A stretch of DNA of 38,163 nucleotides from a virus. The first letter of the stretch is position 1. Each line of letters starts with the position of its first letter. The stretch is from positions 1 through 38,163 of the IMG/VR virus record IMGVR_UViG_3300035698_012105; one strand, written 5' to 3'. Both the position numbers and the translations under genes were made by a program. The notes beneath the pieces were generated by a model. It was given only the letters and a program-made list of their open reading frames with translations. It was not told where the DNA came from and did no database searches. Shown here in pieces: positions 19,743 through 38,163 of the stretch.

Positions 19743-20789
19743 CTAGATGAGATCTAAATATAGGTCTTTCAGTATACGACGAAGTTTCCTATTAATCCCA
19801 AAGAATCTTTTTCGGGAATAGTTATCGGTAATTCCTAAGAGCTTACCAATTTCTTTATGCTTATATCCTGCGTGTCTGAGTTTGAACAATCTACGATCAA
19901 GAGCGGATACAGTACCCAATGCTTCATCGATATACTTACCCAGCATCTTAGCCTTGGGCGGTTTACGGTTTATATCCTCTAGATCATTAGTACCCTCTTC
20001 AGAGAAATAGAATGTTCTAGCGAAAGTCTCGCTTCTACGTCTAAAATTCATGACGTTATAATAGATACACTTATAGGCAAAGGTCCACAAGCTACTAGTA
20101 AAATCAAATCTCTCTTCCAACAAAGCAAGCACATTCAACAAAGCGTCTTGAGTTGCATCGAAGAGATCCGACGAGTTTCTAACGTGCTTTCTACAAAGGT
20201 TTCTAGCTTTAGGCCTTAGCTCCAAGTAGACACTTTCAACAGCACTCTCCTCGCGCATAACGGCCCCTAGTAGTCTAGCCTTCTCTTTCAAAGCTTCTAA
20301 GGTAGAATTGTTATTAATTATAGAACCGAAATCCATGTCATCTAGTGCACACTCAGATTCATGGTTAGATTCTAAACTAGTTCTTCCTTCAATCCGCACT
20401 GTTCGTATATTACTTCCTTCGAAGGCTTCCTTGATAGTAACGCACTCGTTAGGGAACCTCCAATCTGTTATCACAAAATATTCCTTATTAGATTTATGGA
20501 TCTTATCTATAACCATATTAACCCAATAATCTTCGTCTAAGTCTCTACGCTCCTTGCCTATAGTTAGTAGTAGATCCCTAGGTGTTTGATGTTTACCACA
20601 GATAAGTAGAACAGCGTCCTTCAAACCAACGGCGTGAAAGGACTCTATATCAAGGCCGGACTCCTCAGCAGCAACCTCCTTGAGGGAATCAGCGATTGCA
20701 ATCCTTTCCCAATTAGGACCCATCAAATTACAAAAAGTATCTTTACCAGACCCTGCTTTTCCTGAAAGAATAACGATTGTCTTGTGCAT
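19743..20789 (-). CDS. Fused dNMP kinase - ECF-type sigma factor
   Basis: One unbroken 348-codon frame holds two domains. Residues 1-170 are a T4 gp1-like deoxynucleoside monophosphate kinase: P-loop GKAGSGKDT at 10-18, ITDWRFPNE at 107-115, and the closing HESECALDDMDFGSIINNN. Residues about 183-255 match sigma region 2 (SSDLFDATQDALLNVL, then FTSSLWTFAYKCIYYNVMNF with RRR), and 287-341 match region 4 (ALDRRLFKLRHAGYKHKEIG then KLLGITDNYSRKR). About 30 linker residues join regions 2 and 4, as in ECF sigmas. The kinase would make dNDPs; the sigma would redirect host RNA polymerase. It is last in the - arm, which suits a late-gene switch. I know no such fusion. Confidence 0.85.
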   Translation of the reverse strand: MHKTIVILSGKAGSGKDTFCNLMGPNWERIAIADSLKEVAAEESGLDIESFHAVGLKDAVLLICGKHQTPRDLLLTIGKERRDLDEDYWVNMVIDKIHKSNKEYFVITDWRFPNECVTIKEAFEGSNIRTVRIEGRTSLESNHESECALDDMDFGSIINNNSTLEALKEKARLLGAVMREESAVESVYLELRPKARNLCRKHVRNSSDLFDATQDALLNVLALLEERFDFTSSLWTFAYKCIYYNVMNFRRRSETFARTFYFSEEGTNDLEDINRKPPKAKMLGKYIDEALGTVSALDRRLFKLRHAGYKHKEIGKLLGITDNYSRKRFFGINRKLRRILKDLYLDLI

Positions 20790-27411: not shown

Positions 27412-28260
27412 TCAGTTATTCTTGTTTTTTAATCTCGGCGGGCATTGGTAGGCATCGACGACAGCTCTTTCCTTAAGTTCCACCTCGTCCAATTTACCTT
27501 GCTCTTCATAGATTTCTTGTATCCTCTTAAGTAATAAAAACTTAGCTTCCTCTAAAGTATAATAACAATCCCTAAGGTTACAGGCAGCAATGTAAATATT
27601 CCTATGCCGGTAACCAGTACGGCCCCCCGTTTTACAAAACTCCTTTGTGGCTCTATGCATCTCAGATCTATACCCTGTGGCTTGAATGGCAAGAAAATCC
27701 TCATCCGCCATTTGTTTTTCTTCATTGATATTCACCACAGGTTCTTCGCACTGAGAGCTTAACCATTCAAGGAGTTCCGCTTTTGTACACCTTTTTGGTA
27801 TACCGAAGTAACGTTGTACTTCCTTGTTGCTATGTGTCCCATTACCTAACCTTGTAAACCTGGAGGGGTTCTTACAAGCTCGGTCAGCCAGAGGGACGGC
27901 GGCGTAAATCCATCTAACCAATCTATTATACTCTTCTCTACTCTCGGTTGGTTGAGCCAAGGATATAACAAAGTGGTAGGACTTATTTCCTGAAAACACC
28001 CTCGTAGTATAAGGTAAGTTGGCATTGGCTACAATGTCTAGTTGTTTCTTTAGTGGTACATGATCGAACTCCACCAAGAAATTACGAAACTCACTTACAT
28101 TCTCATCGAGGCGAGACGTACCCTCCTTCAAGGGGTTTAGTGTTACGTAGGAGTGCTTAGACTCACCATCCTTTAGATCACTAAGGGTCGTATTAAATGG
28201 GCCCTCAGAGAAGCACACCTTCTCACCTTCGTTGAATATATGATTCAAAAAATCTAACAT
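27412..28260 (-). CDS. Archaeo-eukaryotic-type (AEP) primase
   Basis: The 282-residue protein carries the three motif regions of AEP primases: FLVEFDHVPL (acidic motif, 61-70), FSGNKSYHFVIS (His motif, 89-100) and DRACKNPSRFTRL (126-138). This pattern is shared with phage and plasmid RepB/PrimPol-like primases. The C-terminal half is helical and may contact the helicase. It would prime replication together with the SF3-type helicase encoded two genes upstream. No zinc-ribbon DnaG-type primase is present, which supports the role. AAGGAGG precedes the ATG. Confidence 0.75.
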   Translation of the reverse strand: MLDFLNHIFNEGEKVCFSEGPFNTTLSDLKDGESKHSYVTLNPLKEGTSRLDENVSEFRNFLVEFDHVPLKKQLDIVANANLPYTTRVFSGNKSYHFVISLAQPTESREEYNRLVRWIYAAVPLADRACKNPSRFTRLGNGTHSNKEVQRYFGIPKRCTKAELLEWLSSQCEEPVVNINEEKQMADEDFLAIQATGYRSEMHRATKEFCKTGGRTGYRHRNIYIAACNLRDCYYTLEEAKFLLLKRIQEIYEEQGKLDEVELKERAVVDAYQCPPRLKNKNN

Positions 28261-28281: not shown

Positions 28282-29529
28282 TTAAAATCCTAGTTTATTA
28301 ACCTTTGATTGATTAGCTGTATCTTGCAGATCGAAGACTTTATCTACGTCAGCAATAGTAACTCTAACTTTGGAGATAGAAGAACCTATCTCATCCATTA
28401 GATCGATTTGTACATCAGGGGCATTTCTACCTTGGATATCTTTACTCAGTTTTAAGATGTGTTCCAGTACCTTAACAGAATATTTCACACCGTGGTAGTC
28501 TTCGTATAGATGTTTTATCCCTGTGAGGATATCTAGAATCTCCCGATCCTTTAGCGTATCAAGTACCACGGGTTGAAATCTACGTCCTAAAGCGGCATCT
28601 CTTTTTATAATGCCATACTCTGAGTTTGTAGTCGCTCCGATTACTTGTAGCTTACCTCTAGCTAACGCAGGTTTAAGCATGTTGGCAGCATCTTGGCCCC
28701 CCTCGCACGATCCAGCCTGAACAATCATATGCACTTCATCAATAAAAGCGATAGCGTTAGGATCATCCTCTAGCTCTTTAACAACACCTGTTAACCTCTC
28801 CTCGAACATACCCCTATATTGCGTACCAGCTACAAGGAGATTCATATCAAGAATATAGATCCTCTTGTCGTGTAGTTTAGTACAGTGCACTTCTTTGTTG
28901 TGGATAGAAAGAGCTAAACCCTCCACCAGTGCGGATTTCCCCACCCCTGCTTCTCCTAAGATAACAGGGTTGTTCTTTCGTCGTCTGCTGAGTACCTGAG
29001 TAACTCGCTCTATTTCTCGTTTTCTGCCAATTAGTAGGTCTAGCTTTCCTTCTGTAGCCATGGCGGATAGGTCAACACAAAACTTATCCATGTTAGGAGT
29101 TTTATTTTTTTCTTCTTTTCCGGTATGGAGTTGGATATTTAGGCGACTTATGTCCATTATAAGTTTTTCGACTTCAACGCCGATATCTAGTAACATTTTC
29201 CTTATCTTTGTAGGCCGTTTGAGTAAGCTAGCCACAAAAGTAGTTAACGATTGCATTGGGAAAGTACTGCCTAAAAGACCATCTAACTCAGCGTGGGGAG
29301 TTTCACACAAAAGAGAAAATATACTCCTATTACTCCTCGTGCTTAGATTATTAAGAGTGGTTATAGTATCTAAATCTATTTTATGGGTAGCTAGTACCTT
29401 GATAATTTTGAAGTTAGGGGAGCCTAACAGGGCCATCATTACATGGACACTTGTGTAACGCTCTTCGTTATAGAAGGCGGCTAGTCTCTTTGCGTGCGCT
29501 ATAACCTCGACGATTGAATCTCTGGACAT
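28282..29529 (-). CDS. Single-ring ClpA/ClpC-like AAA+ protein
   Basis: The 415-residue protein has a Clp N-terminal-type helical domain (about 1-135) and one AAA+ module matching D1 of ClpA/B/C: GKLDLLIGRKREIERV, Walker A GEAGVGKS (192-199), pore loop QYRGMFEERL (Tyr 238), Walker B AIAFIDEVH, a sensor in GATTNSEYG, and arginines at GRRF (316-317). D2 and its ClpP-docking loop are absent; the protein stops about 75 residues after the D1 core. It may remodel replication or host proteins, or act as a helicase loader. It sits 11 bases from the helicase gene, with an AAGGAG site. Confidence 0.85.
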   Translation of the reverse strand: MSRDSIVEVIAHAKRLAAFYNEERYTSVHVMMALLGSPNFKIIKVLATHKIDLDTITTLNNLSTRSNRSIFSLLCETPHAELDGLLGSTFPMQSLTTFVASLLKRPTKIRKMLLDIGVEVEKLIMDISRLNIQLHTGKEEKNKTPNMDKFCVDLSAMATEGKLDLLIGRKREIERVTQVLSRRRKNNPVILGEAGVGKSALVEGLALSIHNKEVHCTKLHDKRIYILDMNLLVAGTQYRGMFEERLTGVVKELEDDPNAIAFIDEVHMIVQAGSCEGGQDAANMLKPALARGKLQVIGATTNSEYGIIKRDAALGRRFQPVVLDTLKDREILDILTGIKHLYEDYHGVKYSVKVLEHILKLSKDIQGRNAPDVQIDLMDEIGSSISKVRVTIADVDKVFDLQDTANQSKVNKLGF

Positions 29530-29540
29530 TGTCTAACTCC

Positions 29541-30860
29541 TTACTGGGTCTTTAGCCCTGATATATCTTTGTTTAGATTCAGCATTGTAACTTTCTTTTT
29601 CCCACTTGAAGAAGTGGACACGTCATTAAATCCTAGTGATTTAAGTTCTTTGATGAATTTACCAACCATGCCAGGTTGTTTTCGTTGTGTCTCCATCCAA
29701 TCCCTGTAGTGGTTGAACAGTACCTGAGAGTTATTCGGCACTTTGCCGATACCAAGTTCAAATTCTTCAACCCACTGCTCCACTGTTGTCTGAGTTCTTA
29801 GTTCCTCTTGGTGTTCATCTAGCTCCTCTTTTATTGATAGAATAGGGTTCAGAGTATGTTCTGGAACACTACGCCACACGTCTAGGAAGTTTATAGGGTT
29901 CTTAATTTTAATTCTATTACCATTAATCCACCGCTCCCCAGTGATAACCTCTAGGTCAGCCTTTGTCTCAAGTTCTAACTCTGCAAATCTACGCATCCCA
30001 GTGTTATCAAAGATGAGATCTGCCAAGGGTCTATTTGTAGTTCCTACAAAGGTGCAGTTTTGTTTTATGGTATCAACATCTTGGGTTCTCATACCCCTAG
30101 CACTAAGGTCCTCCGCAGTGATAATGTTTTTCATTGACTCTATATCTGTACGCCCAGCTCCTTGAAGTTCATCAAAGATAACTACGAAGTTCTCACTAAA
30201 GGCTTTACGAAAGAAGCTATCACGGAATACATCAAGTTGAAGATGTAATACGAATTCCTTCAAGGGTTTTATAAGCTCGCCCATAGAAACGCTCTTTCCG
30301 GTACCGTGCTTCTTACTATATAACACAGTCATTATATGGTGTTCGACAGGTAGGCCGGCGATCTTTCTCTTTACCTGCCAAATGAAACATCTAATGACCG
30401 CTTCCGCAAACCTCAGTTTACTTTTAGTGGCAATAGGAAAGAGGGCTTTTACGAACCTAGTAAGTTCAGCACCATCATTGTCCTCATTGTAGCGCAAGGC
30501 GTTCTCTAATCTGAGTTGCTTATCTGCTCGGTTATCATAAAGAAGCTCCTTTAATTGATTGATTAAGTCATTCCTATTCAACCTATTAGGACTTGCTATC
30601 TTGTACTTTGCAGTAAATACACGGTATTCTTGTTGTACTTTAGTGATAAAGACTTCCCTACTGATACCAGGGTTAATTCTCCAGTCTATAGATCCGTCGA
30701 AGCGGATGTTGATTTTATTCTTTCTAACAAATTTCTCTACGTAGGAGTTCTGGCTTTCAATAAGTATAAGTTTATCATCCTGGACGCAGGAACCTGATTC
30801 AATCTCCGAAAGTAATTGTTTTTTCTGGTCATCAGATAGACCCTCGAATCCTTTTCCCAT
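29541..30860 (-). CDS. SF3/VirE-type replicative helicase
   Basis: The 439-residue ATPase has Walker A YSKKHGTGKS (181-190), Walker B NFVVIFDELQGAG (Asp 230, Glu 231), and a sensor segment CTFVGTTNRP followed by DNTGMRRFAEL (Arg 290-291). This order is typical of the phage D5/VirE-like superfamily 3 helicases that work with AEP primases. The first 120 residues are helical with no primase motif, so priming is presumably supplied by the separate AEP gene. GAGGAG precedes the ATG. Confidence 0.85.
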   Translation of the reverse strand: MGKGFEGLSDDQKKQLLSEIESGSCVQDDKLILIESQNSYVEKFVRKNKINIRFDGSIDWRINPGISREVFITKVQQEYRVFTAKYKIASPNRLNRNDLINQLKELLYDNRADKQLRLENALRYNEDNDGAELTRFVKALFPIATKSKLRFAEAVIRCFIWQVKRKIAGLPVEHHIMTVLYSKKHGTGKSVSMGELIKPLKEFVLHLQLDVFRDSFFRKAFSENFVVIFDELQGAGRTDIESMKNIITAEDLSARGMRTQDVDTIKQNCTFVGTTNRPLADLIFDNTGMRRFAELELETKADLEVITGERWINGNRIKIKNPINFLDVWRSVPEHTLNPILSIKEELDEHQEELRTQTTVEQWVEEFELGIGKVPNNSQVLFNHYRDWMETQRKQPGMVGKFIKELKSLGFNDVSTSSSGKKKVTMLNLNKDISGLKTQ

Positions 30861-31290: not shown

Positions 31291-31464
31291 CTATAGATAA
31301 GTTTCGAAGATTTCGCCTTCGGATTTAAAAAAGTACTCGGTGTCTAACTCTGATAAGTCTTGAATCTCTATGAGGAGATCTAATTCTCCTGGGTACTCTA
31401 GGGACAGTCTTACACGTCTCCTAGCCTCAATGATATCACTCGGATCAGCTAAAAAAATTAACAT
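31291..31464 (-). CDS. Short protein of unknown function
   Basis: A 57-codon frame starts at an ATG with AAGGAG eight bases upstream and overlaps the end of the zinc-peptidase-like gene by seven bases. The product is charged (DPSDIIEARRRVRLSLEYPG) with an acidic second half. I recognise no family. Codon pattern, ribosome site and tight packing support a real gene. Confidence 0.6.
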   Translation of the reverse strand: MLIFLADPSDIIEARRRVRLSLEYPGELDLLIEIQDLSELDTEYFFKSEGEIFETYL

Positions 31465-31904
31465 TCTACAACTCCTTGTAAATGGGGCGCTAGGTAGTCT
31501 AGTATCCTAACGACCTCAGGTAAAACATCAAGTTCCCACTCGATACCTTCTTCGAGACAAGCTTCAGTCAAGGTCTTTAGTGGACCAGGATCGACTTCTT
31601 CGACGTAAGGGAACAGTAACACATTAGTAGCAGCTTCGGCTATGGTCTCCTCTACAAGCCTGTAAATTTCACGTTCACCGTAATGAACTAAGGTAAATCT
31701 ATTAAGGATTGTCTCTTTACCTACGTAGTGAGCCAATTCATGAAGCAGCACGTGAATCTTCTGGTATTCAGGGAGAGAGCCACGGACAAGAATCTTGTCT
31801 TTCCAGTAGAGACAAAGCCCCTCCCATTGGGAGTTTTCATCGCTACTTTCCTCTACCCTTACCCCTAGTAGGCTGGCGACTTTCTTTAGCTGATGGTAGT
31901 TCAT
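31458..31904 (-). CDS. ImmA/IrrE-like zinc metalloprotein (cytoplasmic)
   Basis: The 148-residue protein has HELAH at 55-59 (VLLHELAHYVG) and a downstream acidic helix (LVEETIAEAATNVLLFPY) in the place of the third zinc ligand, as in ImmA/IrrE-type peptidases (DUF955). No helix-turn-helix and no signal peptide is seen. Such proteins cleave repressors or other regulators, but the target here is unknown. It has its own sigma-70-like promoter at 31933-31962. It resembles its neighbour around the active site (HELxHYxG). Confidence 0.7.
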   Translation of the reverse strand: MNYHQLKKVASLLGVRVEESSDENSQWEGLCLYWKDKILVRGSLPEYQKIHVLLHELAHYVGKETILNRFTLVHYGEREIYRLVEETIAEAATNVLLFPYVEEVDPGPLKTLTEACLEEGIEWELDVLPEVVRILDYLAPHLQGVVEC

Positions 31905-31930: not shown

Positions 31931-32473
31931 TTATTGTAGCATAAGCCGATTTTCAATGTCAAGTTTTTTTATTTGGTGGATTAAATAATTGTAAGCCTCT
32001 CTAATGTAGTAGTATGACTCCAACTTTTCCCTCTCTGTAAGTTCGTGCCATTTGCTGTGACCTAAAAGGTACGTGATCATCTCTTGTTTCGGATAAGCGT
32101 GCTCACCCTTATACAATACCTTAGAAAGAAGGACTGTGGTATACTCAGCAATGAATTCTTCGTTTATAACGTCTATGTAAGGGGGACGAAAAACTCTATC
32201 CTTCCTCGAGCCAGTGTAATGAACCAATTCATGGATGACGGTAGCTAAGTAGTGGGCATCTGTTTCATCCTTTTCTTGTGCAGAGATGCGAATCTTATCT
32301 TCTCTAACATAGTAGGCAGCCACCATACCCCTAGCTCCTTCCTTGACTTGGTTGTCTTCTACTGAGTAATCTACTCCTAGGATATCATAAATTTCTAGGG
32401 GGTTTATGTCTCCAGCTACTAAGCTACCGACACTAAGAATAGTGACTAGTGAGAAAGCTTTAAATATATTCAT
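31931..32473 (-). CDS. Exported HExxH zinc metalloprotein
   Basis: The 180-residue protein begins with a likely signal peptide (MNIFKAFSLVTILSVGSLVA, cleavage near Ala 20). It then shows HELVH at 81-85 (VIHELVHYTGSRKDR) and an acidic helix INEEFIAEYTTVLLSKVLY. The HELVHYTG context resembles the zincin domain of ArdC-type proteins, but export argues against ordinary antirestriction. An envelope role (lysis, exclusion, or wall opening) is possible. It overlaps the upstream gene's stop by four bases; a promoter for the next gene overlaps its 3' end. Confidence 0.65.
   Translation of the reverse strand: MNIFKAFSLVTILSVGSLVAGDINPLEIYDILGVDYSVEDNQVKEGARGMVAAYYVREDKIRISAQEKDETDAHYLATVIHELVHYTGSRKDRVFRPPYIDVINEEFIAEYTTVLLSKVLYKGEHAYPKQEMITYLLGHSKWHELTEREKLESYYYIREAYNYLIHQIKKLDIENRLMLQ
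31933..31962 (-). promoter_or_regulatory. Sigma-70-like promoter for the ImmA-like gene
   Basis: On the - strand TTGACA (31957-31962) and TACAAT (31933-31938) are separated by 18 bases, with an A-rich run just upstream of the -35. Predicted start is near 31926, about 20 bases before the ATG of the 148-residue gene. Confidence 0.75.
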
Positions 32474-38030: not shown

Positions 38031-38047
38031 GCCCCAAACGGGGTTTT
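38031..38047 (+). other. Short hairpin at the predicted late RNA start
   Basis: CCCC (38032-38035) pairs with GGGG (38040-38043) around AAAC, and TTTT follows. It could end readthrough from the DUF115-like gene. Because it lies just where promoter E should start, it could instead cap and protect the 5' end of the late RNA. Confidence 0.5.
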
Positions 38048-38163
38048 CAAAAACACCATATGCGGTCTATGCTAGCCAGCATGGATGCGGTAACAGGAAG
38101 GATGGTAAACATGGCAACACAATTAAATTCAACAGATGCTCAATGGAACGCTATCAGAACAGC
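38037..38163. repeat. Right copy of 127-bp terminal overlap
   Basis: This copy is identical to 1-127 and includes the first codons of the virion gene at 75. It should be counted once when the genome is closed. Confidence 0.95.

Follow-up and report, generated by a model that had tools for sequence, protein, structure and literature searches.

A phage-encoded one-ring Clp protein of D1 descent with a putative ClpP-docking tripeptide at its C-terminus

A gene located between the helicase and primase genes of a 38,163-nucleotide phage genome (the whole stretch of DNA analysed, referred to below as the window) encodes a Clp protein that is reduced to an N domain and a single D1 module and ends with the tripeptide LGF. 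The product is probably a D1-derived one-ring unfoldase that docks via this C-terminal tail on ClpP, which would be the host ClpP in the case of the window phage. On a wider proposal we are evenly divided, namely that the D1 ring was turned by phages, perhaps on two occasions, into a one-ring cap for ClpP through loss of D2 and transfer of the docking tripeptide to the C-terminus, and that this cap works with the ClpP of the host in the window phage but with phage ClpP in others. The docking reading is favoured because the D1 motor is intact, D2 is absent, the tail tripeptide is conserved, and clpP is linked with the one-ring gene in another phage (G035). The features of the locus are:

29541..30860, minus strand: VapE-like/DUF5906 helicase gene, upstream of the one-ring clp in the same operon
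28282..29529, minus strand: predicted one-ring Clp (N + D1) AAA+ unfoldase of 415 aa, from domain, fold and motif matches
29107..29529, minus strand: degenerate Clp-type N domain, aa 1-141, from profile match and AF2 model
28360..29094, minus strand: D1 AAA+ large domain and lid, aa 146-390, with Walker A at 192-199, pore Y238, Walker B at 260-265 and RR at 316-317
28285..28293, minus strand: C-terminal LGF, putative ClpP-docking tripeptide, aa 413-415, followed by the stop codon at 28282-28284
27412..28260, minus strand: AEP-like primase gene, downstream of the one-ring clp in the same operon (phrog_2597, 7e-18)

The open reading frame starts with ATG, is preceded by an RBS-like AAGGAG, and is a genuine gene. 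The VapE-like gene, a spacer of 11 bp, the one-ring clp, a spacer of 21 bp and the AEP-like primase gene follow one another on a single strand, confirming the position between helicase and primase genes that an earlier note on this DNA had assigned. The VapE-type helicase and the AEP-like primase are here two separate frames with the one-ring clp between them, in contrast to fused primase-helicases. The 38-kb genome contains terminase, portal and major head genes, and carries a 127-bp direct terminal repeat (1-127 and 38037-38163); it is therefore likely to represent a complete phage genome, and the absence of a gene from this record carries weight accordingly.

By search against NCBIfam, the D1 models of ClpA, ClpB and ClpV matched the window protein with E values of 3e-86 to 4e-76 (213-290 bits). 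Both Pfam AAA and AAA_lid_9 scored above cut-off, and the best PDB sequence match was D1 of ClpC (5e-69, residues 136-386). Walker A (GEAGVGKS), Walker B (IAFIDE), sensor 1 (GATT), the pore motif YRG and the RR fingers were all identified, and the four non-redundant one-ring proteins (see below) retain every one of these elements. Fold comparison of the AF2 model with Bacillus subtilis ClpC aligned 248 residues with a Z score of about 29, an r.m.s. fit of 2.1 Angstrom and 50% identity, and ClpC D1 was also the best match by Foldseek. These observations support the earlier assignment as a ClpA/C-type D1 with Walker motifs, pore tyrosine and arginine fingers. The best sequence and fold matches are thus to class I D1, closer than DnaC or Rubisco activase types; the class II (ClpX/HslU) lineage was not supported, and DnaC/IstB-type AAA+ was not among the Pfam matches of the window protein. 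The lack of D2 was also borne out, as the protein contains a single Walker A and the D2 small domain (ClpB_D2-small, PF10431) is absent across the whole window genome.

The N domain proved weaker than had been implied. A Clp N-domain profile matched the N region (hhalign E 3e-9; hmmsearch 1e-10 in a set of four sequences), so that the claim of a Clp N domain stands; the domain is degenerate, and Pfam Clp_N gave no match at E 0.1. The AF2 model (pLDDT 82) aligns to ClpC starting at residue 4, its N-domain fold being partly borrowed because the 27-row input alignment, built without rows from annotated phage records, includes real Clp N domains. Between the window protein and its homologue in phages G001 and G002, identity was 26.5% in the N domain and 66.5% in D1. 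The N domain thus appears to be changing much faster than D1, a pattern that would suit substrates or adaptors varying from host to host.

Besides the window protein, only three non-redundant one-ring relatives were found among about 55 homologues: the G001/G002 protein, which shares 50% identity with the window protein and occupies the same operon position, and those of loci L057 (phage G034) and L060 (phage G035). In the tree, the window, G001 and L057 proteins formed one clade (100/100), and L060 stood apart on a long branch; the one-ring set of four sequences therefore has three members from one clade. The one-ring form may have arisen twice, and the tail tripeptide may be convergent because L060 lies apart on its long branch. 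Since the pattern YRGMF aided the finding of L057 and L060, sharing of M241 is in part a product of the search; the tail was in no search pattern. Viral scans with L057 and L060 as queries returned only the query itself, a viral scan with the window primase returned no relatives, and tblastn against plasmids and phages gave nothing at 60% identity or higher. Two bacterial Clp-like frames of 703-714 aa (L094 4566-5807 onward and L095 331-1584 onward; Lysobacterales, Hyphomicrobiales), which carry GTQYRGMFEERL and whose N region is short and unusual, form a separate long branch in the tree.

Two further observations concern other genes. A deoxynucleoside monophosphate kinase joined to a sigma-70-like factor is encoded on the minus strand at 19743-20789 of the window and at L053 1989-3029 (348 and 346 aa), an unusual fusion conserved in two phages, as judged from Pfam and PHROGs matches in the window and by eye for the G001 copy. 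Neighbouring zincin-like metallopeptidases, M78-like and MPTase-PolyVal, are encoded on the minus strand of the window at 31458-31904 and 31931-32473. The M78-like peptidase is found also in G001 and both kinds in phage G004; near the one-ring clp, an MPTase-PolyVal gene is located in L057 and a SprT-like gene in L060. These zincin-like metallopeptidases are diverging rapidly.

The earlier note had taken ClpP docking to be absent. The D2 loop is indeed missing, and to this extent the claim holds; the C-terminus, on the other hand, carries a candidate for the same function, and the phages of two relatives encode ClpP. The window protein ends with KVNKLGF, and the tails of the relatives are KRVGFGS (G001/G002), KQVGFNKK (L057) and KGFGFVLSK (L060), the last with FGF, which falls outside the strict (L/I/V)GF. 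G414 and F415 are invariant across the one-ring proteins, and the rest of the tail is poorly conserved (36% identity between window and G001). LGF is the sole [LIVFM]G[FL] within the window protein. Among 633 phage C-termini, [LIVFM]GF occurred within the last 12 residues in nine, four of which are the one-ring Clps, against a background of 5 in about 629 other phage proteins. ClpP-binding loops carry the tripeptide (L/I/V)-G-(F/L) (PMC8745299), and its docking in the H-site of ClpP has been described (PMC9035409). Many of the two-ring relatives examined have the tripeptide in the D2 loop (LGF, VGY and IGF, as in SKLGFNKHE and QKVLGFGAD; FGF in Chloroflexota); this loop with its tripeptide is missing from ClpB-like two-ring relatives. 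The AF2 model predicts a helix rather than a flexible loop for the tail beyond the lid (pLDDT about 71-77, falling to about 53 at LGF), a point against the docking reading. The terminal position of GF is not strict, as would suit a tripeptide on a tether more than a signal that depends on a free carboxylate. Mimicry of the SSB tip by a terminal -GF was also considered and rejected, since the neighbouring residues are basic and the G001, L057 and L060 proteins extend past GF.

ClpP genes were absent from the window, G001 and G002 records; this absence, the FGF of L060 and the small set of four sequences, mostly from a single clade, weigh against the docking reading. In phage G035, which carries L060, a true ClpP (E 6e-60) is encoded three genes downstream of the one-ring clp; the genes of this stretch share one strand, are spaced by about 12-18 bp and form an apparent operon. 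The early region of phage G034, which carries L057, includes a gene for a ClpP-like protein of 170 aa, flanked by phosphoesterase and nuclease-like genes; PDB ClpPs match it at 3e-12, and a Ser/His/Asp triad is recognisable by eye. ClpP-family genes occur in 8 of the 48 comparison phage records, so that co-occurrence by itself is weak evidence. Some of the phages that have a related head protein encode a ClpP-like protease, with PF00574 matches in G008, G017, G028 and G031. That of G018 (L113 4422-5135), the single one of the comparison set to be read throughout, is encoded between terS and terL and has a signal-peptide-like start, and no Clp ATPase was found with it.

Among other readings, the one that survives best, though we consider it unlikely, is that the protein is a non-proteolytic remodeller which threads or disassembles complexes of VapE-helicase, primase or other replication proteins, with the C-terminal GF making another contact. 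ClpX acting on MuA and ClpB acting on aggregates are models for such remodelling. The location of the gene between helicase and primase genes in both window and G001, the intact motor residues and the lack of a phage ClpP in the window and G001/G002 genomes are in agreement with this reading. Against it, phage G004 (VapE 70% and primase 55% identical to those of the window) has the same operon, but there the primase gene comes immediately after vapE, indicating that the Clp gene is optional in the vapE-primase operon. Moreover, the gene in the phage of L057 adjoins a TOPRIM/DnaB-type helicase instead of VapE, the L060 copy is near clpP and not adjacent to recognised replication genes, and conservation of the tail tripeptide also speaks against this reading.

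It is still less probable that the protein poisons or decoys host Clp, either by forming mixed hexamers with ClpA/ClpC, by titrating the ClpS/MecA adaptors with its N domain, or by blocking ClpP pockets with its tails, so that host proteolysis fails. A D1 closest to host-type ClpC and the missing D2 would suit such a role, and phage proteins that deregulate ClpC via its N domain have been reported, as cited in PMC10030653. Yet Walker A and B, the pore tyrosine and both arginines, superfluous for a decoy, are kept in four of four proteins, and the N domain is widely divergent between phages. A dedicated DnaC-like loader of the VapE-type helicase is highly improbable: gene adjacency speaks for it, but the lineage is that of Clp D1 and not DnaC, and the lack of the gene in G004, together with the different helicase beside L057, argues against an obligatory or VapE-specific loader and weakens the helicase loading suggested earlier.

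With ClpC and ClpA, class I Hsp100 proteins and partners of ClpP, the window protein shares the N domain, D1 fold, motor residues and docking tripeptide, but it is without D2 and middle domain, and the tripeptide is at the C-terminus and not on a D2 loop. With the class II proteins ClpX and HslU it shares the one-ring layout and the expected work with a peptidase, whereas its AAA module is of D1 lineage, the ClpX zinc domain is lacking, and the docking element is terminal, in contrast to the internal loop of ClpX. The two-ring ClpA/ClpB known from jumbo phages and others (PHROG 4871; PA5oct, RaK2-like) are likewise phage-borne and have a homologous D1, but those examined contain two AAA modules against one and measure about 730-880 aa. 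Mycobacterial ClpC2, a partial ClpC homologue, is also a shortened Clp; it matches only the N domain of ClpC1 (PMC10030653), whereas the window protein retains the D1 motor. In the literature we found neither a D1-only ClpP-docking Clp nor a natural D1-only ring working with ClpP, and a D1-only Clp with a C-terminal ClpP-docking tripeptide, as read from the sequence, would be an architecture not found there.

Under the docking reading, the protein would be a one-ring ATP-dependent unfoldase/translocase, presumably hexameric, that descends from the D1 ring found in Hsp100 proteins of the ClpC/ClpA type. The fast-changing N domain may select substrates or adaptors, and the tyrosine pore loops, of which the residues are kept, would thread the substrate. 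The (L/V)GF is predicted to be carried on a short tail at the D2-facing end of D1, and six such tails would fill the hydrophobic pockets of ClpP in place of the D2 loop that two-ring Clps use, leading to degradation of the substrate. ClpP would be supplied by the host in the window phage and by the phage itself in G034 and G035. Early in infection, the phage would probably use the protein to direct the degradation of host proteins or replication proteins; a meeting of phage replication with ClpP-linked machines is known from the removal of lambda O protein by ClpXP, as cited in PMC6102473. If the docking reading is true, a D1 ring alone would be able to drive the ClpP protease, and the minimal ClpP-linked motor would be D1 plus a tail. 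It would then become possible to ask whether a tethered tripeptide suffices for docking, and the one-ring Clp would give a phage of only 38 kb a compact means of redirecting the ClpP of its host.
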